Shown here in pieces: positions 2,511 through 38,298 of a stretch of 64,000 nucleotides of DNA. Under the pieces are notes generated by a model. The model was not told the origin of the DNA. It worked only from the letters and a program-made list of their open reading frames with translations, and did no database searches. Source of the DNA: Lineus longissimus. Lineage: Eukaryota > Nemertea > Pilidiophora > Heteronemertea > Lineidae. Made by a program: the position numbers and the translations under genes. The stretch covers positions 11,596,501-11,660,500 of the forward strand of contig NC_088311.1 in assembly GCF_910592395.1 (NCBI RefSeq), written 5' to 3'. Position 1 is the stretch's first letter. The number at the start of each line of letters is the position of its first letter.

Positions 2511-3291
2511 TACGAAAGCCCAGAAGGCTCATTCGACAAAACTTACTTCGACAAAACTCACTTCAACAAAGACTTCGACAAAATTGATTTCGACAAAACT
2601 CACTTCGACAAAATCGACCAATCAAATCGTGTTTTACATACCTACCTATGTGTTTTACATAGGTAGGCCAGAGGTCGGTATTTAGGGCATAGTAGCTATC
2701 ATGGCGGTCAAGGATCCACCCAACACGAGGGTATCAATCTCTGATGAGCAAAACTCGTTCGTATCTATTTTCTGCTTCACTACATTTCTTGTGGACATGT
2801 ATCTTATATAGACAGATGCTTTATGTGTATGGTAGCATATCATGATACATACAAACAGATATCCGTGCCGTGATTTTACAGTAATGACAGCGTCTTACAA
2901 TTACCGCAGGCCGTTAGGCCAGGCCCTTACCCATAAATCTCATTTATAAGTAGTGTACTTAACAAGCTCTTCTACCTTTAGTGACTCGCGGTTTCGGAAA
3001 ATAAATACGAACGAGTTTTGCTCATCAGAGATTGATACCCTCGTGTTGGGTGGATCCTTGACCGCCATGATAGCTACTATGACCTATATACCGACCTCTG
3101 GCCTACCTATGTAAAACACATAGGTAGGTATGTAAAACACGATTTGATTGGTCGATTTTGTCGAAGTGAGTTTTGTTGAAGTGAGTTTTGTCGAAGTGGA
3201 TTTTGGCGAAGTAAATTTTGTCGAAGTGAGTTTTGTCGAAGTCAATTGTGTCGAAGTAAGTTTTGTCGAATGAGCCTTCTGGGCTTTCGTA
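2511..3291. mobile_element. Non-autonomous foldback DNA transposon with tandem-repeat arms
   Basis: The ends form a long inverted repeat beginning TACGAAAGCCCAGAAGGCTC. Each arm starts with degenerate copies of a ~15-bp unit, CTTCGACAAAACTCA. A unique inverted segment of about 170 bp follows, and the arms (roughly 2511-2775 and 3010-3291) are joined by a spacer of about 230 bp. CTACTT directly flanks both ends (2505-2510 and 3292-3297) and is a candidate 6-bp target duplication. No transposase is encoded. The superfamily is uncertain: a 6-bp duplication would suit IS3EU or Dada types, while TA immediately inside each end would also allow a TA-targeting element. Confidence 0.8.
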
Positions 3292-13416: not shown

Positions 13417-16400
13417 ATGGCTAATTTGTGGGACACTATTGCGGTAGGTAGTTTTGTAGAGATGCACGGCAGTAACGGTAGAGTGCTAATCTTAATCAAG
13501 CAATGAAAATGTGGTAAATTGGGCTCCCCAAGGTGCAAAAAATATGCCGCTCTGTGTCGGCCCACTTATGTATCATTGTATGGGCGGATATACATGCATG
13601 CATGCATCATTGCATGATGACAGATGAGTCGCGTTGTGTTGTCGTATTCTGGAGAACGTGCAAGCGAGCAAAATAGAACCTCTAGATATGTAAACAAATT
13701 GTACCAGTAGGTGAACCTAAAAATCAGCGAGTATCAGGGTGAGGGATCGGAGCACATCGAGTAAAGTAGGCATGGGTGTAGCAGCCGGGCCCGGGGTGGG
13801 GGCTTCAGCCCCCTACATTTCAAGAAATTTGTGGATTTTTTCAGACTTTCACCGTGATTTGGGGTGAGTGTGGTGTGTAGCATAAATTTTGATATTTATT
13901 TGCATTATGGGTTTCTTTCTTTTCAGAACTTAAAATTACCGATACCAGAACCATCTGAAGGGGCAGATGACCAACACAAGGAGGCACCATCAGGGTATGT
14001 ATAGACATGGACCTGAACACCTGAAATATATTGTCTCCTGAAGAAATCATAAAACATTAAGCCCTAATGTGGTTTTGATAATTTTTTTCAGTCCGAAGAT
14101 GCTTCGGTACAACCCCGGGTATGACATAAGTGTGCTGAAGGAGGTCCTTCTCCTCAATCCTTTTGATGACGCCAGTAGATGGGATGAGATTGCAAAGGCC
14201 TTTAATAAAGAGCTCATGAAAAGGCGCCCCAATGTGCAGGCCGTCAATAGTAGATCAATCAAGGAGAGGGTGGAGAAATTGTTGAAAGCTTTTAAATCAG
14301 AGCAAATGGCGGCACTGAGAAGGTAAGACATGAAAAATTTTAAGTGAACTTTAACATGCAACCACACTAGTTTCCAAGAGTTTGCATCTAATAGTGATGC
14401 ATCAATGTGTGCCTGAGGGTATCACAGAAGGTATGTACAGAAACAAATGATATGTAGCCTATTGCAGGGCAGATGCATCCACTGTAGAAATGGGGAATCT
14501 TTGATAAAATACTCAATACTTGTGCTCAATGATATTTTAATTGATTTGTTTCCTATGTGCCATTTTAAAAATGGTGGGTGTAGTAGGCTAAACTCTAAAA
14601 TCAAAGGGCCTTGATGGTACATGTTACTCTGTCTTTTCTTGCAGATCAGGAACAGCTGAAGAATACACAGAGAGAGACAGCCTTTTGACTGAGATATCTC
14701 AGATGAAGGATGAATCGCACGTCAAAAAAGCCTCTGAGACAAAGGGTTCCGATGACAAAGACATCATAAAACAGGGGGAGGCCGTAAGGAAACATGCCAT
14801 GGAAGGCATGGCAAAAAAAGGTAAGCATTTTGGTCTCAATAAAGGCCCCCAAGTTATTCAGATTCTTGTATTGTACAGGTATTGTAATGTATAGCAAGTT
14901 GTTGTTTTTGCCCGAGTACTCGTTATCCTCTTTACATGGTTTTACACCAAGACACCCCTCCCCCCGCCTGGATGGTATGTTTGACGCATTGAACATAATC
15001 TGTGCCATATAATATTTCAATCCGATATACGCTATCTTCCTGTAATTGTTTTGAATATTGCGCCTATTTTCCCAGTTATTTGCCTATCGTCACCTTTGAC
15101 ATGTTCTTTCGCTAACTTTAACTTGCGCGCGCGCTGAGACAACCCCGCGTCGTGAGTTGCGATGACGTAACATGCGCTTCAGCCATTTTCGATTTGTCAG
15201 GGAAGGTCTTCGCGGACTTCGTCCCTCTTTTTTGTGGGTTTTTTGTAACTCTTTATGGTTTGAATCGGGAGGTTTCAAGATTCAGGTAAAAGCAAAATAT
15301 GTATAGAAACCCCTAGCCCACTGTCATTCAGAATAGTTAAAGGTGTACATCAAAATCAAGGTTTGATTGTCCGTTGTCTTGAATGCTTCGCCAGAAGTTT
15401 CGATGAGTGCGCGCCTCGTGCGATGCGTACATCTATGCATTGAGCATGCACTCTGTGTATAGGAGCAACGTCTCCCAGCGATTTTACAGTACCAATATCA
15501 TTATGTCATGTACTAAGTTGTGAGAATATTTAGGACTGCTTTCAATGATCCATGTGACAGTAATATGTAGGTTTTAGTTCTCCGTGTAAGACCATGTTGT
15601 AGGAAAGACAAATTTGAGGACATTTGTATACTACAAGTATGGTTGTGAGGTACTGTTTCTGATTGTGACACATGTTTGTACTATTTCAGAAAACCCCATG
15701 TTATGGTGTTAAAAGAAGATTAGAAATCGACTCCCGAATTGTTGAGTTTTCCATCCCTGTCTCCACCATTCTTTTCTGAATCCTGCTTCTGCACTGGTGA
15801 AGATCGACATGGCGCCGATGGAAGACTTAAAGAGCAAACGCAAAGGACTGCGTGCCCGTTGCACGAGGGCTATCAACCGCCTTAAAGAGAACATCGATAA
15901 GGACACGATTTCGCTGCTGAGACTTGAGCGAGAACTGGATGCCCTTGCAGCGGACTTTAGACAGGCATGTGACATCAATACTGATATGATTTCGCTGGTG
16001 GAGGAAGATTCGACGGATGCTGATGCATTTGTTCATTGGGAGGCGGAACTGATTGAGGTGTATTACAACTTTATTGATGAAGCCGCTGCCCATCAATCGA
16101 AGCTGGCCAAAGCTCGGCCACCTTCCCCCACAGCTTCTACTAGTGGGCCTGCATCCGGTGCTGCTGTCATCACGTCGCCCCCTGCTGGACTGGTTCCTGT
16201 GTCGCCGCCAAGCGGTACTACTGCTGCTGCTGCCACGACGGCCCCTCCTGGGCTGTTTTCCGCCTCGCTGCCGACTGTTCCTGCTACGTTGCCACCCGGC
16301 TTGTCCCCAGTGATGACTGCTGCTGGTCCATTGTCGCTGTCAAGTACACCGTCCATTGGTGTACCGCTTGCCAGCCCGTCTTCGATTCGGTCTGGTGTTC

Positions 16401-19400
16401 GACTCTCTGCCGGAGTCGCGTTGGATCCAGAGCCCACCTTCGACCGGTGGATCGATGAACTGGTGGAGTTTCAAGAGACGGTATTGCCCGGTGGTGTCAG
16501 TGGTGAATTGACTATAGCGTCTGCCCTCTATCGCATAGAGGCGGGTAGAGACATTCCTACATTAAAGATAAAATCGTTCAGCGGTAAAGCGATCGATTAT
16601 GTAGACTTTATCGATAGCTTTAAACTACACATTCATGAGAAACCACATCTCAAAGATGATGCCCGTCTTGCGCAATTGAGAATGCATCTCTCTGGTGATG
16701 CTGAACGTTTGATAGCTGGTTTAGGATGTGCAGGTGTGATGTATGCAACCGCGTTGAAACAACTTAAGGACCAATTTGGGGCCCGCAGTGTAGTTGCTCG
16801 TGCCTTTATTGATAGAATTGCAAGGGGTAAAAAGATTGATAATTCTAGAGATGCACTTCGTGATTTCTCCATTGATGTTATTAATGTCATCGCAGGTCTG
16901 CAGCGCCTCCAGTACTTCGCTGATGTGAACGCCGTTGCAACTCTACGCCGCATCGTCCAGCGTCTCCCTGATTACCTCATTGACAAGTGGCAGGACACAG
17001 CCGCCCATATTCGCGAGCGTGACCCTATACGCGCGCCATCAATAACCGATCTGTCCGATTTCCTACGCAAGAAAGTCAGGGCAAAGTGCGACCCAGACTT
17101 TGGGGATCTCCGCTCCACTGACAAGGGTGTTGCTGGTAGTAAGTATGAAAAGCAAGGTACCGGTAGTCGCTCCTTTGCTGCGCAGGCTGTCAAGTATAAG
17201 TGTTACATCTGCTCTGAGCCACACAAGGTGCCTGAGTGCCCCACATTTGTCAGTAATTCAGTCTCAGAACGTCACAATCTTGTCAAGACACATAATCTGT
17301 GTTTTTCATGTCTTGTCAGGGGTCATCGATCTAAAGACTGCAGGTCGAAGAGGAAATGTGGGAAAGCTGGATGCACTAGGTGGCATCATGTGATGCTACA
17401 TGTTGACTCTCCACCTCCGATTGTCCAGTCTGCTCCTTTTTCAGGTTCTGCCACAGCGGCTATTGACAAAAATGGTATTCTGCCTGTAGTTAGGGTGTTG
17501 TTTAGGGCTGAGAATGGTAGGATCAGGCAGGGGAATGTCTTGGTTGATTCAGGGTCAACGACCAACATTATCCGGAGGGATTTTGCAAGAGGTTTGGGCC
17601 TCCAGGGCAAGAACGAGCCCATTGAAGTTCAAGTTGTTGGTGGGTCACAGCAGGGCCAGCAGGATAGTCGTAGACTAAAGTTCTGGATTTCCCATTTGGA
17701 TGGAGGGGAGGAGCACTTAGTTGAGGCTCATGAGATGGATTGCACAGTATCTGAGGTCTCACCTTTGAACATGGAATATTTGCATTCATTTTCTCATCTC
17801 AGGGATTTGAACATCTCCCACCCTGGTGGTCCAGTCGACCTAATATTGGGGGTTCAGTACAGTCATCTCCACTCAGAGGAAGAGGTCAGGCGTGGATTGG
17901 ATTTTGAGCCCATAGCCAAGCGCATCCCACTGGGTTGGTATGTAATCGGTTCTGAGGGGAAGGCCCCTAAGCGGCTGTCTGTGAATCTGGTTAGGAAGGT
18001 CGATATGTCTGACTTGTATGATCTGGAGGTGCTTGGGGTCAGAGCCCCAACTTGTCAATGCCCTGTTGATCCCATGTCCTCAGAGGACAGGAAGTCTCTA
18101 GCGCTGTTGGAGAGATCTGTGAGTCTGGAGGGGGACCGATACATGATCGGTTTACCCTGGAAGAGAGATCCCTGTCTCTTGCCTGACAATTATTGCCTGA
18201 CCAAGAAGAGGCTAATCTCTTTGGAAAGGAGTCTGTCTCGTACTCCAGAGAAGGCTTTGCTTTATGATGCCGCCGTCCAGGAGTATGTCGACAAGGGATG
18301 GGCCGTAAGGGTTGACCCCTGTGATCTTGAGAAGAGGCCTAGGTTTTATCTGCCGCATCATGGCATATACCGTCCTGATAAACTCAGCACACCCCTAAGA
18401 GTAGTCTTTGACCCAGCTTGTCAGTTCCAGGGTGTCTCCTTAAATTCTTTTCTATATAAGGGCCCAAATTTGATTGGAAACTTGTTTGGAGTATTGCTTA
18501 GGTTCAGGGAGGACTTAGTTGCTATTGTGGGTGACATCTCTAAAATGTTCCTTCAGATTTTGTTGAAGCCTGAGGATACCGAGGTGCATCGTTTTCTGTG
18601 GCGAAACCGGGATGACACAAGAGACCCTGAAATCTTCAAGCTGACCAGAGTTGCATTTGGTGATCGATCATCCCCTGACATGGCGAGCCTAGTGATGTTG
18701 AAGATAGCTGAGCGCCACAAGACGTCTCATCCGGAGGCTGCCCAGGTCCTAGAAGAAGATCGATACGTGGACGACCTGATACATTCCTGTGGAAAGACAG
18801 ACGTTGCCCGAGGCAAGATGAGTGATCTTGATGAAATCCTAGCGACAGGGAGCTTCAGAGTCAAGGAGTGGTACATTTCTCGTGGTATCGGTAAACCTGA
18901 AGGTCAGCCAGCTAGTGTGCATAGTGGTGAGTCTATTAGTCTTGGAGGTAGCGGTAACGATAGCGTCAAGACCCTTGGGGTCTCTTGGGATCATAGCACG
19001 GATTTTATCCATTTCAAGGTGAAGGATCCACCTGACTCGTCTTTGACTAAGAGGTCTGTATTGTCTCATCTGTCAACTCTCTTTGATCCACTTGGTCTTG
19101 CTACCCCAGTCACAATCACTGCCAAAATTGCCATGCAGGACATTTGGAGACTCAAGGACTTTGGTTGGGACACTGGTCTGCCCCCCGACCAGGTTCAGCG
19201 ATGGAATGAGATTTTCTCCAGTTTCAAACAACTTGAGACAGTGTCTGTCCCTAGGTCAGTTAAACCAGACGACGCATTTGGAATTCCCCAACTTCATGTT
19301 TTCGGGGATGCCAGCATTCATGCATATGGGGCTGTTGCCTACATGCTGTGGCCAACAGCTGATGGTATTAGCGTCCGCCTGTTCTCGTCTAAGGCTAGGG

Positions 19401-22400
19401 TGGCCCCACTCCACCAAACCACAATTCCGGGCCTTGAGCTGATGGCAGCTCTCATTGCCTCACGTCTGGCTAAGACTATTCATTCTGAGCTGCGTACCAA
19501 GCCTGAGGTCCACTTGTGGTCTGATTCTGAGATTGTCCTCCACTGGGTCAAGTCTGACTCTCTCTCCTTGAAGCAATTTGTTGGGGTAAGAGTTGCTGAA
19601 ATTCAGGCAACCTGGGATCCCTCAGTTTGGAAGTTTGTCCCAACAGCCCAGAATCCTGCGGATGATCTCACCAGGGGATTGACACCAGAAGAGATGGCCG
19701 GTCGCTGGATTGAGGGGCCAGAGTTTCTGAGGAAAGGAGAGACACATTGGCCAGCTCAGCCGTCGAAGATTGCTGAAAGGGATTGTGAGAAGAGACCGGA
19801 AAGACAACCCCCCAATATGTCTGCATCAGCTGTGAAGATTGTTCCACCAATCAAGTGTGAAGACTATTCAAGTTGGCCTAGACTTATCAATGTGACAGCA
19901 TTGTGCCTCCGCTTCTTTGGTAATCTGAGGGCCAGGGCAAGAAAGGAGGATATAAAGACCGGAGAGCTTGAACCAGGAGAACGAGAAAGAGCTGAAAGGT
20001 ACTGGGTTTCTACTGCGCAGAGAGGGCTCATTGATTGGGAAACTCGTTGCAAGGATCTGGCTCCCTTTGAGGACAATCAGGGTTTGCTCAGGGTAGGAGG
20101 TCGTCTTCGCAAGTCTCCGCTGTCCTATGATGAAAATCATCCTTTTCTCCTCCCAGCATCTTGCCACATTTCCAGATTGTTGATGAGAAATGTCCACTGG
20201 AAAAATGGACATTGCGGGTCTGAAAGTACTCTCTGCCATGGCCGGAGAAAGTACTGGTTTCTGAGAGGTCGGAATTTGGCACGTCAGATTGTTAGAGATT
20301 GTGTGGTGTGTAGGAAATTGCGCAAGTCTCCACTGGTCCCTTGGATGGCTGACCTACCCAGTGAGCGTCTTGCATTGTTTGCTCCAGTCTACAGTACTAC
20401 AGGCCTTGATCTGTTTGGTCCATTCTTCCTCAAATGTGGTAGAAATAAGAGCACGAAGGCTTGGGGAGCCATCTTCACCTGTGGTACTGTAAGGGCAGTA
20501 CATCTTGAGATTGTGGAAAATTTGTCCACTCAGGCATTTCTCCATGCCTTCAGGAGATTTGTCTCGCATCATGGATGGCCGTCAACTATCATCTCAGACA
20601 ATGGTAGCTCCTTTATCAGCACGGAGAAGGAGCTAAGAAAACTTGTACAGGAAGGGCGAGAGCAAATTCAAAGGTTTGCCGTCCTCCACCAAGTCAAGTG
20701 GCGTTTTATAACCCCTCTAAGTCCAAACCAGGGAGGATTTTATGAATCACTTGTAAAATTGGTCAAGAAAGGTCTCAAGTTAGTTGTTGGACAACAAACC
20801 CTCACGTGGAATGAAATGTCCACAGTATTCGCGGAGGTCCAGAATCTGGTCAACTCCAGGCCATTGGGTTATAGTTCAAATGATCCCAATGATTTACAGC
20901 CCTTAACGCCCAACCACTTTCTTCTTGGAAGAGCATCGGCTGAAACGCCACAAGGTCCATTCAACCCAACCAAAAATCTCCACAAGAGATTTGAATTTAC
21001 CCAGAGTTTGGTAAATCAGTTTTGGACACGGTTTGTTCGGGAATATTTGCCCACATTGCAAAGAAGGTCTAAGTGGCTTCGGAAGGACAGAGAGGTTCAG
21101 GTTGGTGACATTGTCCTTTTGGTTGATCCAAGTGCAGTGCGCGGTCAATGGGAGCTAGGTCGAATCGAAGAAGTATTCCCTGGAGACGACGGTGTCATCC
21201 GCAATGTTCGCGTCAAAGTCAAGACCGGTTTCAGGAATCGTTCAATTCAGAGATGTGTTCCTATCCTAGAGTGTGATGGTGAGGACAGTGATTTCGTTGG
21301 AAGTGAGGAGGTGGTTCATGAGGACCAATAGATATTGTGTTTTTGTGCCTATTGGTCTCGCCCCATATTCCATCATCATATTCCGTCATTCCAAGTTTAG
21401 TCTATTATAGACATTTCTATTGCTATATCATAAAAAATTAATGCGTCCGCGTTATAATCATAAGCGCGTCCTTTGGCGCCCGGAGGATGTTTTGAATATT
21501 GCGCCTATTTTCCCAGTTATTTGCCTATCGTCACCTTTGACATGTTCTTTCGCTAACTTTAACTTGCGCGCGCGCTGAGACAACCCCGCGTCGTGAGTTG
21601 CGATGACGTAACATGCGCTTCAGCCATTTTCGATTTGTCAGGGAAGGTCTTCGCGGACTTCGTCCCTCTTTTTTGTGGGTTTTTTGTAACTCTTTATGGT
21701 TTGAATCGGGAGGTTTCAAGATTCAGGTAAAAGCAAAATATGTATAGAAACCCCTAGCCCACTGTCATTCAGAATAGTTAAAGGTGTACATCAAAATCAA
21801 GGTTTGATTGTCCGTTGTCTTGAATGCTTCGCCAGAAGTTTCGATGAGTGCGCGCCTCGTGCGATGCGTACATCTATGCATTGAGCATGCACTCTGTGTA
21901 TAGGAGCAACGTCTCCCAGCGATTTTACAGTACCAATATCATTATGTCATGTACTAAGTTGTGAGAATATTTAGGACTGCTTTCAATGATCTATGTGACA
22001 GTAATATGTAGGTTTTAGTTCTCCGTGTAAGACCATGTTGTAGGAAAGACAAATTTGAGGACATTTGTATACTACAAGTATGGTTGTGAGGTACTGTTTC
22101 TGATTGTGACACATGTTTGTACTATTTCAGAAAACCCCATGTTATGGTGTTAAAAGAAGATTAGAAATCGACTCCCGAATTGTTGAGTTTTCCATCCCTG
22201 TCTCCACCAGTAATATCTCACGGGTTTTTATTTCAGATGACTCTACCCCATCGAAAAAGGTCAGGAGAACACAATCCATGTCTGAGTATGTAGAGTACAA
22301 AAAAGCAGAAATTGAACTTAGAAAGGTAAGAAAGCAGGAACTGCAAATGGAAAGAGAGGAGAAAGGGAGAATGTTTTCGATGATGAAGACCATGCTTGAG

Positions 22401-22915: not shown

Positions 22916-23905
22916 TTAGTTCCCAATGTAATCCTGAAGTGATGGAGCCTCCATTTCAAAATAGGAGCCGGTCTGTGATCCGTATAGGCAAGTGTGAAAA
23001 TTGGTCAGAAGCCCTGCCACTAAGTAATACTTGGCAACAGGCTGAAGGAAGACCTTTAAATTCTTTTTAAAGTCAACAAAGGCCCAATATTTCAGAATTT
23101 TTCCAAATGTCCATTCCACCGAAGTGCGCACACCAGACATTGCGGAATTGAAGTCTTCTTGTTGCTGAGTGAGAACAGCTGCTCCTTCTCTGAGAACGGG
23201 GAAATTAACCAAGGGCGGTTTGGGTAAGCTGGATCTCCGTATATGTAGAAGTTGTCTCCTGTTGCCGTTCGGGGCAACTGGTCGAGCTGGCGAAGAAGAC
23301 CACTTTCCCTCAAAATACCGGAGTCATGTCTGCGTCCTTCAGCCGGCCCCCACAGATTCGCGATTAGTCCATTAGGAAGCGTCAATGATTGAAATTTAAT
23401 CGCATGTACCCTCTTGTGCCCATTGAATACCACTCTTTGAAGACGAATTGGTCGGCATATCGGCCTTACAGTCCCGTCTATGAAGCCGAAGCAGTTCTCT
23501 AGAGGGGCACCAAGGCCATGAATCGCATCAGCGTAGGAGCGAAGATGGTTGGCATCCATCCACGGCTGATCAACCGGATTTAAAAGATGACCATGCCTTC
23601 TGTAAATGAAGTCGACCGTCTCGTTTATGGCAAGTGATAGCACTGAGGTGGGTCGGCCAAACAATTCTTCCATATCAGTCAGACGGTTAGGGTATGAAAA
23701 GCGCCTGAGTGTCATGCAGAGAGCATCCTCTGCCCGTACTACAGACCGGTTTCTGCAAATTATCACCGGTCGCAAGTCGAGCACAGAGACAAGATCTCTT
23801 ATCTCATCCTTTCCAAATCTAAATTTGTCCAACCATTGCGCCTCGTTCAGTGAGTCAAGATCAAATCGGCTCCAGTTGAGGTCAAACGTCGGCTGTTTTG
23901 GTGAA
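22916..23905 (-). pseudogene. HARBI1-like Harbinger transposase with frameshifts
   Basis: The minus strand encodes the DDE nuclease of PIF/Harbinger. An N-terminal stretch DLNWSRFDLDSLNEAQW is followed by the conserved PNRLTDMEELFGRP region, the first catalytic Asp in FIDGTVRPICRP, the second in YGDPAYP, and the Glu in VEWTFGKI. TAA ends the last part at 22916. The frame changes between the second Asp and the Glu, near 23205, where two extra bases (TC in a TTCTC run) break the reading. A further upstream break near 23890 separates a possible N-terminus (MENELLHQ). All three catalytic residues survive, so the gene died recently, or the breaks are assembly errors. Confidence 0.9.
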
Positions 23906-23949
23906 GTAGCTCATTCTCCATTACAAAATCCAATAAATCTTCGTCGTCG

Positions 23950-24570: not shown

Positions 24571-24700
24571 ATTATCTCGGCGGGACGACTTAGTAAGTCA
24601 GGGGACGACTTAGTAAGTCGGGGGGACGACTTATTATCTCGGGGGGGGGGGGGGACGACTTATTAAGTCGGGGGGACGACTTATGAAAGCGAGGGCGAGG
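24571..24700 (-). repeat. Left arm of 21-bp tandem repeats, foldback element
   Basis: Copies of GGGGGACGACTTAGTAAGTC, several imperfect, with one copy containing a run of 14 G (24641-24654). They are inverted relative to the array at 25755-26040. Confidence 0.85.
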
Positions 24701-25740
24701 CCTGGCTGTGACTGTCTCATCTCTCTCACCATGTAGACAACTTGGCAGAGCAGCCGAGACTAATTTGGCCTGGCTGTGACTGTCTCATCACTCTCATCAT
24801 GTTGTCAACACGGTGGAGCAACCAGGACTGATTCGGCCTGGCTGTGACTTCCTCATCTCTCTCATCATGTTGTCAACATGGTGGAGCAGCCAAGACTGAT
24901 TTGGCCTGGCTGTGACTGTCTCATCTCTCTCGCCATATCAATAACTAGGCAGTGCGGCAAAGACTGATGCGGCCTGGCTGTGACTGTCTCATCACTCTCA
25001 CCATGTTGACAACTTAATAATAATATTGCCTTACTGCCTTTTTCATGAATCAATTTTGAGCATTATGTTTACAACGTAGTTGACAATAATTATAGTGAGA
25101 GAGATGAGACAGTCACAGCCAGGCCGAATCAGTCTTGGCTGTCCTGCCAAGTTGTCAACATGGTGAGAGAGATGAGGAAGTCACAGCCAGGCCGAATCAG
25201 TCCAGGCTGCTCCACAGTGTTGACAACATGATGAGAGAGATGAGGAAGTCACAGTCAGGCCGAATCAGTCCTGGCTGCTCCACCGTGTTGACAACATGAT
25301 GAGAGTGATGAGACAGTCCAACCAGGCCGCATCAGTCTTCGCCGCACTGCCTAGTTATTGATATGGCGAGAGAGATGAGACAGTCACAGCCAGACCAAAT
25401 CAGTCTTGGCTGCTCTGCCAAGTTGTCAACATGGTGAGAGAGATGAGGAAGTCACAACCAGGCCGAATCAGTCTTGGCTGCTCCACAGTGTTGACAACAT
25501 GATGAGAGAGATGAGGAAGTCACAGCCAGGCCGAATCAGTCCTGGCTGCTCCACCGGTCTGACAACATGATGAGAGTGATGAGACAGTCACAGCCAGGCC
25601 AAATCAGTCTTGGCTGCTCTGCCAAGTTGTCAACATGATGAGAGAGATGAGACAGTCACAGCCAGGCCAAATCAGTCTTGGCTGCTCTGCCAAGTTGTCT
25701 ACATGGTGAGAGAGATGAGACAGTCACAGCCAGGTCTCGC
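24701..25740. repeat. Inner palindromic arms of ~68-bp tandem repeats
   Basis: About 4-5 units reading GGCCTGGCTGTGACTGTCTC (24701-25015) face about 9-10 inverted units reading GAGACAGTCACAGCCAGGCC (25095-25740), separated by a short AT-rich centre. The right arm is twice as long as the left, so unit number changes independently in each arm. Confidence 0.9.
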
Positions 25741-25751
25741 CCTCGCTTTCA

Positions 25752-26040
25752 TAGGTCGTCCCCCCGACTTAATAAGTCGTCCCCCCGACTTAATAAGTCG
25801 TCCCCCCGAGATAATAAGTCGTCCCCCCGACTTACTAAGTCGTCCCCCCGACTTACTAAGTCGTCCCCCTGACATAATAAGTCATCCCCCCGAGATAATA
25901 AGTCGTCCCCCCGACTTACTAAGTCGTCCCCCCGACTTAATAAGTCGTCCCCCCGAGATAATAGGTCGTCCCCCCGACTTACTAAGTCGTCCCCCCGACT
26001 TACTAAGTCGTCCCCCCGACATAATAAGTCGTTCCGCCGA
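25752..26040 (+). repeat. Right arm: ~13 copies of a 21-bp repeat
   Basis: The unit is CGTCCCCCCGACTTAMTAAGT, and each unit contains a small dyad (CGACTTAATAAGTCG). Variants CGAGATAATAAGT and CGACATAATAAGT are interspersed. Because 21 is a multiple of three, all frames stay open and give spurious repetitive ORFs on both strands. Confidence 0.9.
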
Positions 26041-36222: not shown

Positions 36223-36287
36223 ATATATGTAGGGTGTCTATAAACCGAAGATCGAAGACCGAAGATCGAAGATAGAAGACCCACCCA

Positions 36288-36628
36288 AAACTATAAAACG
36301 AAGATCCCCCCAACTATAAAAGGAAGACCCTAATGTCAACTATAAAACGAAGATCCCCCCATCTATAAAAGGAAGACCCTAATGTCAACTATAAAACGAA
36401 GATCCCCCCAACTATAAAAGGAAGACCCTGATGTCAACTATAAAACGAAGATCCCCCCAACTATAAAAGGAAGACCCTAATGTCAACTATAAAACGAAGA
36501 TCCCCCCAACTATAAAAGGAAGACCCTGATGTCAACTATAAAACGAAGATCCCCCCAACTATAAAAGGAAGACCCTAATGTCAACTATAAAACGAAGATC
36601 CCCCCATCTATAAAAGGAAGACCCTGAT
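36288..36628 (+). repeat. Left 49-bp tandem array, ~7 copies
   Basis: Units start about every 49 bp from 36291. They differ mainly at AACTATAAAAGG versus ATCTATAAAAGG and CCCTAATG versus CCCTGATG. Confidence 0.9.
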
Positions 36629-37027
36629 GGTTTTCATTCTCATGTTCAGTTACTGTTTTCATTTTCGGTCCATGCTACATTAATGATTTGAGAAAGTAAG
36701 TGTACCGGGTACTACACCAGTCGTGTCTAGCCTTAGCAGCTTAGTGGCACAGTTTACATAAGGCGGGGAGCCCCGTACCTGTTACCATGCAGCCGTGCTC
36801 CAATATGACCTAGTTTCTCACTGTACTCATCATAGCCAGCCCTCAGCTTCGTCCAGAAGCTGTTTCTATGTGCATGTGTGTGTATCGTCATAGGCTCCCA
36901 GCAGGTTAGTTGATCACACGGCCAATATGGAATTGGTCCTACATACAGAAAAACAATCCAAACGTGCACGTGCAGGCGATGTCTACATGGCACTTGCCTG
37001 CTAGTTTTCATTGACATTGATTTTCAG

Positions 37028-37196
37028 GATTCCCTTTATCAGTTTTCAAACATGGCTTTTAAATTACCAAAATTGAATGTGTCAGGTAAACAGAAGTGCG
37101 AGACATTTTTCAAGAAATTCAAATGGGCCGATTTGAGTGTCGTAGAAGAGATCGGGCAAGGAGCTTACGGGACTGTGTTTCGGGCAAAATGTACGG
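37028..37196 (+). CDS. Captured first coding exon of a protein kinase gene
   Basis: Acceptor TTGATTTTCAG ends at 37027. Then 24 nt of 5'UTR lead to ATG 37052 in good context, with an open frame of 48 codons plus 1 nt to a donor-like ACGG|GTAATA at 37197. The product begins MAFKLPKLNV and has a glycine-rich nucleotide loop, IGQGAYGTVF, at residues 34-43. That is the start of a Ser/Thr or Tyr kinase domain, with the catalytic Lys expected in the next, absent exon. It is in opposite orientation to the surrounding mosaic gene and enclosed by Mutator-like arms, so it was probably copied from elsewhere in the genome. Without splicing, the frame runs on to a stop at 37318. Confidence 0.75.
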
Positions 37197-37404
37197 GTAA
37201 TACCATCATGGGTCGAGACTGGCAGGTCGGTCGCCAACTCCTAAATGCAGTGTTAGGAAAATCCGGAATTTACCTGAATGATCTGATCTCCTATGTCACT
37301 ACGCCGCACTCAGGCTAGCTTGCTTGTTGAAATACAGATGCTCAGTCACGTGTTATGACGTGCAAGTCTGCAGTAACTGAACTTGAGGGTCTAAAACCAC
37401 CAGG

Positions 37405-37845
37405 GTCTTCCTTTTATAGATGGGGGGATCTTCGTTTTATAGTTGACATTAGGGTCTTCCTTTTCTAGTTGGGGGGATCTTCGTTTTATAGTTGACATTA
37501 GGGTCTTCCTTTTATAGATTGGGGGATCTTCGTTTTATAGTTGACATTAGGGTCTTCCTTTTATAGATGGGGGGATCTTCGTTTTATAGTTGACATCAGG
37601 GTCTTCCTTTTATAGTTGGGGGATCTTCGTTTTATAGTTGACATTAGGGTCTTCCTTTTCTAGTTGGGGGGATCTTCGTTTTATAGTTGACATTAGGGTC
37701 TTCCTTTTATAGTTGGGGGGATCTTCGTTTTATAGTTGACATCAGGGTCTTCCTTTTATAGTTGGGGGATCTTCGTTTTATAGTTGACATCAGGGTCTTC
37801 CTTTTATAGTTGGGGGGATCTTCGTTTTATAGTTTTGGGGGGGGT
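37405..37845 (-). repeat. Right 49-bp tandem array, ~9 copies, inverted
   Basis: Same unit as the left array on the opposite strand (GGGTCTTCCTTTTATAGTTG then GGGGGATCTTCGTTTTATAG). Several units have lost or gained a G. Confidence 0.9.
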
Positions 37846-38298
37846 CTTCCATCTTCGATCTTCGGTCTTCGGTCTTTGGTCTTCGGTTTATAGACACCCA
37901 TATATGTATACACAAATAAACATGAAATTGATAGGAATTTTAGAATTTTGGTATAATTCGAAATTGTATTGCACACTGATTCTCGCTTTTTATCATTAAG
38001 TTGCTTCTTTTCATTTCTTCTATCAACTCAAATATGTTGGCTGCAAACGGAGTACAATATGAAATAGTAACACTGTGCAAATAGTACATAATGTACCAGT
38101 ACCAGGTACAACTCTCATATTGCAGACACATTAATGTATGGATATTTACCATTATTGCTGAAAATCTGAGGCTCATTGATTCTTTTTTAAAGAAACTGAT
38201 GTTTAGAAATTGGAGATGAAAAATGCAGTGCCCGACAGAAGATATACTCAGCAAATCGTATAAAACGAGAGTGCAATGTGCTTCTGTCAACGACGTTT

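Follow-up and report, generated by a model that had tools for sequence, protein, structure and literature searches.

A MITE-like element of Lineus longissimus is very probably an internally deleted copy of a MULE/foldback-type transposon whose longest copy carries a kinase, a VTD-class deubiquitinase domain and a MULE-like transposase

The usual picture of a cut-and-paste transposon is a transposase between two ends, and in the Mutator-like element (MULE) superfamily target duplications run from 8 to 11 bp. Among described systems, the Mutator/Foldback family Tm1 from root-knot nematodes has composite terminal inverted repeats (TIRs) with variable tandem repeats, 9-bp target-site duplications (TSDs) and miniature inverted-repeat transposable element (MITE)-like copies beside transposase-encoding ones (PMC3169594). 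Viral-tegument-like deubiquitinases (VTDs), with a catalytic Cys and an Asp-x-His motif, are transposon-borne in Helitrons and Helentrons, and cnidarian VTD domains occur fused to transposon-associated domains (Erven et al. 2022, PMC9741609), while giant eukaryotic transposons with accessory genes likewise bring extra enzyme domains onto a mobile element (review PMC6431247). Here we describe a 1668-bp TIR element at 36232-37899 of a 64,000-nucleotide stretch of the 391-Mb genome of the nemertean Lineus longissimus (contig C4:11596501-11660500, hereafter the window; C-numbers are contigs of this genome). We regard it as very probably a MITE-like derivative, shortened by internal deletion, of a MULE/foldback-type transposon; the longest copy of that transposon carries a Ser/Thr-type kinase, a cysteine deubiquitinase domain of the VTD class and a MULE-like transposase. 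The sequence evidence for this reading lies in the ends and duplications, the internal deletions, the catalytic motifs and a gene order that recurs in diverged families.

Like Tm1, the family of this element combines composite variable-repeat TIRs, 9-bp TSDs, and both MITE-like and transposase-encoding copies, but its repeat unit, ends and host differ; in the Tm1 paper (PMC3169594) the word "kinase" does not occur, and no VTD was seen in its passages. The family shares with the Helitron and Helentron elements of PMC9741609 a VTD domain that shows Cys and Asp-x-His, but unlike those rolling-circle elements it is a TIR element with a MULE-like transposase and a kinase; "MULE" has no occurrence in that paper, nor has "kinase" in its search listing. 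Gene capture, which an earlier note on this stretch did not know as routine in animals, has already been described there as 370 Pack-TIRs in 100 animal genomes (PMC8277862); like these and plant Pack-MULEs, the window element holds a gene fragment between TIR element ends, but the fragment is what internal deletion has left of a gene that belongs to the family itself. The word "kinase" is likewise absent from the giant transposon review (PMC6431247) and from a paper on MULE evolution (PMC6446971), and no kinase-bearing DNA transposon was among the literature matches listed, whose limited coverage was without Repbase and most subscription journals. As far as these sources extend, then, foldback-type MULEs with 9-bp duplications (PMC3169594) and transposon-borne VTDs (PMC9741609) are already known, and what is new here is the kinase together with VTD and transposase in one module.

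The window element is an internally deleted, non-autonomous copy with ends GGGTGTCTATAAACC at 36232 and 37899, directly flanked at both by the exact 9-bp duplication ATATATGTA. The duplication, the long arms of 49-bp repeats, the kinase coding sequence between them and a MULE-like nature of the whole had all been recognized in the earlier note, and each holds, the element being of MULE/foldback type. Its parts are as follows.

36223..36231, no strand: left target-site duplication ATATATGTA (direct reading and copy comparison)
36232..37899, plus strand: whole element, 1668 bp, internally deleted non-autonomous copy (ends, arms, copy comparison)
36232..36279, plus strand: left TIR, 48 bp, 92% complementary to the right one (inverted-repeat comparison)
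36289..36629, plus strand: left arm, 7 tandem 49-bp units, each with CTATAAAACGAAGATCC-like and CTATAAAAGGAAGACCC-like halves (tandem repeats)
36630..37203, plus strand: left family interior (leader and kinase gene start), 96-99% identical to the 14.9-kb copy (genome matches, alignment)
37052..37203, plus strand: kinase gene of the element, first 50 codons and 2 bases (frame, alignment to the long copy)
37202..37203, no strand: 2-bp microhomology AC at the internal deletion junction, where 1626 of the long copy is joined to 13860 (alignment)
37204..37401, plus strand: right family interior (genome matches, alignment)
37402..37834, minus strand: right arm, about 9 tandem 49-bp units, inverted (tandem repeats)
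37852..37899, minus strand: right TIR, 48 bp (inverted-repeat comparison)
37900..37908, no strand: right target-site duplication ATATATGTA (direct reading and copy comparison)

From the ATG at 37052 runs an open frame, MAFKLPKL...IGQGAYGTVFRAKCTGN, that includes IGQGAYGTVF. The splice donor formerly placed at 37203 has to be given up: the bases taken for it, GGGTAATAC, are kinase codons running into the deletion junction, and the identical bases continue as coding sequence in the long copy. The splice acceptor that the earlier note read farther upstream stays a candidate. Searched alone, the 49-amino-acid (aa) kinase piece had no Pfam match and matched kinases in the PDB weakly (best E 0.021), while an 88-aa window frame found no match in the protein collection, where only proteins of similar length could be candidates; Rfam and tRNA scans of the window gave 0 matches. 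Each 49-bp unit contains two TATAAAA-like boxes (a few of them mutated), about 30 over both arms, which might serve as promoters or transposase sites.

Evaluating the interior (36640-37400) genome-wide, we found at least 63 matching pieces at 96-100% identity, the window's own included, and the family is present in dozens of copies. Twenty stretches were fetched (two forming one long copy), which with the window gave 21 copies, mostly 98-99.8% alike. Exact duplications flank all 13 copies with both ends found (9 bp in 10, 10 bp in 3), so neither ends nor duplications are due to chance; for the remaining eight (L009, L021-L025, L027 and the second copy of L026) the second end lay outside the stretch or was not found. 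Exact duplications at many sites, together with near-identical copies, show that the family has been mobile. These 9-10 bp, and the 8 bp of family F3 described below, fit the MULE range given above, and the foldback-type trait is present as long inverted arms whose tandem repeats vary in number (3-17 units in each arm across the 13 copies, the count differing between the two ends). The longest copy, C3:10315112-10329969 (14,858 bp, TSD GTTTCAACA; the long copy), is collinear with the others, which differ by internal deletions; the few exceptions are L017 and L018, in which an inverted left piece replaces the right interior, and L022 and L024, whose fetched stretches showed right interior next to the array only. 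Different cargo between the same ends, as envisaged in the earlier note, was seen only to this extent: two of the three long extra pieces are nested repeats (the long inserts of L021 and L011 are a nested element whose inverted ends measure 56 bp and a dispersed repeat that the window contains as well), and the third, 401-1232 of the long copy, matched nothing besides itself among the sequences compared. In L026 (C9:14835000-14844000) two copies lie 7.2 kb apart with identical deletion borders, and are probably a local duplication.

The long copy supplies the gene from which the window fragment would derive. A 579-aa frame at 1475-3211 matches Pkinase at 1.7e-30 (residues 30-348) with the expected Lys, HRD and DFG present (VVVKK, HRDIKPAN, DFGESRS), and C-terminal to the kinase it continues into a domain with NDGTNAC and VVDTHP whose predicted fold matches VTDs, the identification coming from the fold search. 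The C, D and H of this domain are invariant in 13 pieces aligned and line up with both catalytic stretches of 8adb, with a weak score (E 1.2), while a further row, P0007, has DPN instead of Asp-x-His; Pfam on the 13 members gave a best E of 0.04, to an unrelated family, and Herpes_teg_N in one of the 13, at 0.18. Farther downstream, a 738-aa frame at 8020-10233 matches the MULE domain PF10551 (8.9e-5, below the Pfam cut-off) and has a Cys/His stretch that we take to be SWIM-like. An NCBI gene model, P0003 (686 aa), begins in the C-lobe of the kinase, crosses the protease domain and linker exons (from SLSRIDG) and reaches into the N-terminal part of the transposase, with GT and AG readable at its exon borders in the long-copy sequence, and ends at the frame break between a 188-aa frame and the 738-aa one. 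Kinase, VTD and transposase, all in one direction, are apparently a single spliced gene in the window family; we infer enzyme activity for kinase and VTD, and a role for them in transposition.

We then considered the association beyond this family. Searching the genome with the kinase gave 38 matches (the weakest being ordinary kinases) that merged into 30 loci; near-identical ones were window-family copies, the next having 74% identity or less. The transposase gave 55 matches, merged into 38 loci, four of which have a kinase within 12 kb as against 0.07 expected under uniform placement (binomial P 8e-7, too small given non-independent loci). In all four the kinase lies 4.7-6.9 kb upstream on the same strand. 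These loci, on C3 (window family), at C14:10.29M and C1:14.20M (family X, kinase 46% identical) and at C1:11.20M (46-48%), are four of the five best transposase matches; two more kinase-transposase pairs, 27 and 57 kb apart, were left out of the count. Between the kinase and transposase of family X on C1 stands a 233-aa frame that matches the sequence of 8ADD at 1.3e-5, QC and FDSH included, and Herpes_teg_N at 3.8e-4, below cut-off.

Ends were also found for two further families. For F3 (loci on C6, C8 and C13) no TIR was found in 4-kb loci, and more flank gave the ends of the C8 copy (11,541 bp, 8-bp TSD ACTGTTGG, arms of 16 and 20 21-bp units); its genes come in the order kinase, VTD-like frame, 660-700-aa frame. 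The VTD-like frame matches Herpes_teg_N at 7.5e-4, below cut-off, and is 36% identical to its family X counterpart, and the 660-700-aa frame is a putative transposase, without a transposase Pfam match but with a C-terminal part (104 columns) matching the P0108-type transposase profile (hhalign probability 93). F2, on C14, has ends GGGTGTCTACAAA and a 10-bp TSD around a broken kinase exon of about 40% identity, so such ends and the kinase were already combined before the window family (F1) and F2 parted; its copies share equal flanks, which suggests that they were copied together with their surroundings. An end test of locus L058 gave no ends. Judged by these comparisons, the kinase-transposase association is old, with the same order in diverged families. 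Two other relatives were noticed: at L045 (C20:6431653) a kinase relative shares one open frame with reverse-transcriptase-like sequence (by eye), fused in appearance, and L039 (C1:13369201-13370367) is a broken relative of the window-family kinase with VTD remnants, 67-74% identical.

Relatives extend to other organisms. Among 7991 scored candidates the 579-aa query had 106 matches at E <=1e-3, of which 18 cover 94-100% of it and hence include the VTD domain, and E jumps from 3e-36 (P0077) to 8e-13 at the next, a generic kinase. The named strong relatives come from Lineus, corals (Desmophyllum, Oculina, Acropora, Montipora) and Mytilus. The transposase query had 30 protein matches. P0136, from a 4,840-base contig, is a single 1252-aa frame with kinase (30-295), NDGRNAC and VDTH, and MULE (989-1067, below cut-off) in succession, collinear with P0003 (5e-26 and 2e-13). 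In a tree of 25 family and 11 generic kinases the generic ones, drawn from the same search and no full sample of host kinases, all fall on one side of one branch (85/89). Scanning viral_contigs with transposase alignment A2 gave 33 pattern matches, 0 confirmed.

Taken as a MITE-like derivative of this transposon, the window element would owe its movement to a transposase that binds the CTATAAA(A)CGAAGA units repeated along the arms, excises the element and reinserts it with a 9-bp stagger. Short copies like it may arise by faulty gap repair at a 2-bp microhomology, and would be mobile only with transposase supplied in trans by a long copy; they scatter kinase 5' ends across the genome. That the kinase and deubiquitinase work for the element is a proposal we hold in even balance: the deubiquitinase might spare the transposase or a partner from the proteasome, and the kinase might modify the transposase, or else host factors of repair, checkpoint control or silencing. 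We give equal weight for and against to the wider proposal that the TIR transposons of animals include an old and widespread class with a kinase-deubiquitinase-transposase working unit, which would control its transposase or disarm host control through its own phosphorylation and ubiquitin editing, and to which many "host" kinases (ULK1-like, CDK-like) of corals, molluscs and nemerteans would belong or from which they would descend. If this is true, the constant order of kinase and deubiquitinase across diverged families implies an element involved in the signalling and protein turnover of its host, and genes called host ULK1-like or CDK-like kinases can belong to transposons, a warning for annotation.

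Several observations weigh against the reading of a kinase-VTD-transposase element. All MULE Pfam scores are under the 27.6-bit cut-off (23.3 in the long copy; 20.1, 15.4 and 22.9 in relatives, with E of 9e-4, 0.025 and 1.2e-4), and one transposase relative, P0116, has no MULE Pfam match. No intact autonomous copy, which the earlier note had proposed to look for, was seen: within the window family a transposase was found in the 14.9-kb copy only, with a frame break between its 188-aa and 738-aa frames. The VTDs of the window family and F3 match each other with a weak score. Because family X, with two copies ~99% alike, accounts for two of the linked loci, the independent cases are three and the P value is too small, and with no kinase within 12 kb of 34 of the 38 transposase loci (C17, the fifth best, and 33 weaker), not every relative needs one. 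Copies also differ by few substitutions, with no silent excess.

This last point favours the best of the rivals, an unlikely one, in which kinase and VTD have long been carried along as a passenger that serves no function. The IGQGAYGTVF exon is retained in just 5 of the 13 both-ended copies and the 579-aa frame in one (copies on C11, C13 and C8 that retain much of the kinase have shorter frames of 518, 486 and 424 aa), and the substitutions among these young copies are not mostly silent: per pair of four F1 copies the kinase has 0-2 silent and 1-3 changing ones, and silent and changing counts in F3 are 2 and 2 (kinase), 1 and 3 (VTD) and 5 and 7 (transposase), numbers too small to judge selection, with several exon borders set up to ~15 bases off. 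The transposase is, however, equally without silent excess, which the youth of the copies would lead one to expect; the motifs of kinase and VTD are retained between homologues at 31-46% identity, and the order is the same in families with differing transposases, down to the single-frame fusion in P0136. Considerably less probable is a host family of kinase-VTD genes that transposons landed beside or mobilised several times; in its favour, annotations call some relatives host kinases (ULK1-like, CDK2 homolog), and a P0108-type transposase match is missing from the neighbourhood of most kinase loci, but kinase sequence lies within exact TIR and TSD boundaries in F1, F2 and F3, the kinase is upstream on the same strand in the four linked loci, and one gene model is common to kinase-VTD and transposase. 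The Pack-MULE capture of a host kinase exon proposed in the earlier note, whether by the window copy or its immediate ancestor, is barely credible: there are true kinase codons within the TIRs and the window copy has no transposase, but the copies share one interior as part of the family, an outcome that the earlier note had itself named as refuting capture, the full kinase stands beside the transposase in the long copy, and the genome search for a parental locus found near-identical kinase matches only in family copies, so that on sequence comparison the kinase piece belongs to the element itself rather than being an exon newly taken from the host.

Elsewhere in the window, 15-bp repeats (TTCGACAAAACT...) make up the inverted arms of a further element at 2514-3290, whose matching ends lie near CGAAAGCCCAGAAGG. 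The inverted 21-bp repeat arrays that surround 68-bp-unit arrays at 24577-26040 look like another foldback-type element. Long open frames at 15746-21331 and 22916-23910 are presumably a BEL/Pao polyprotein and a Harbinger-type transposase.
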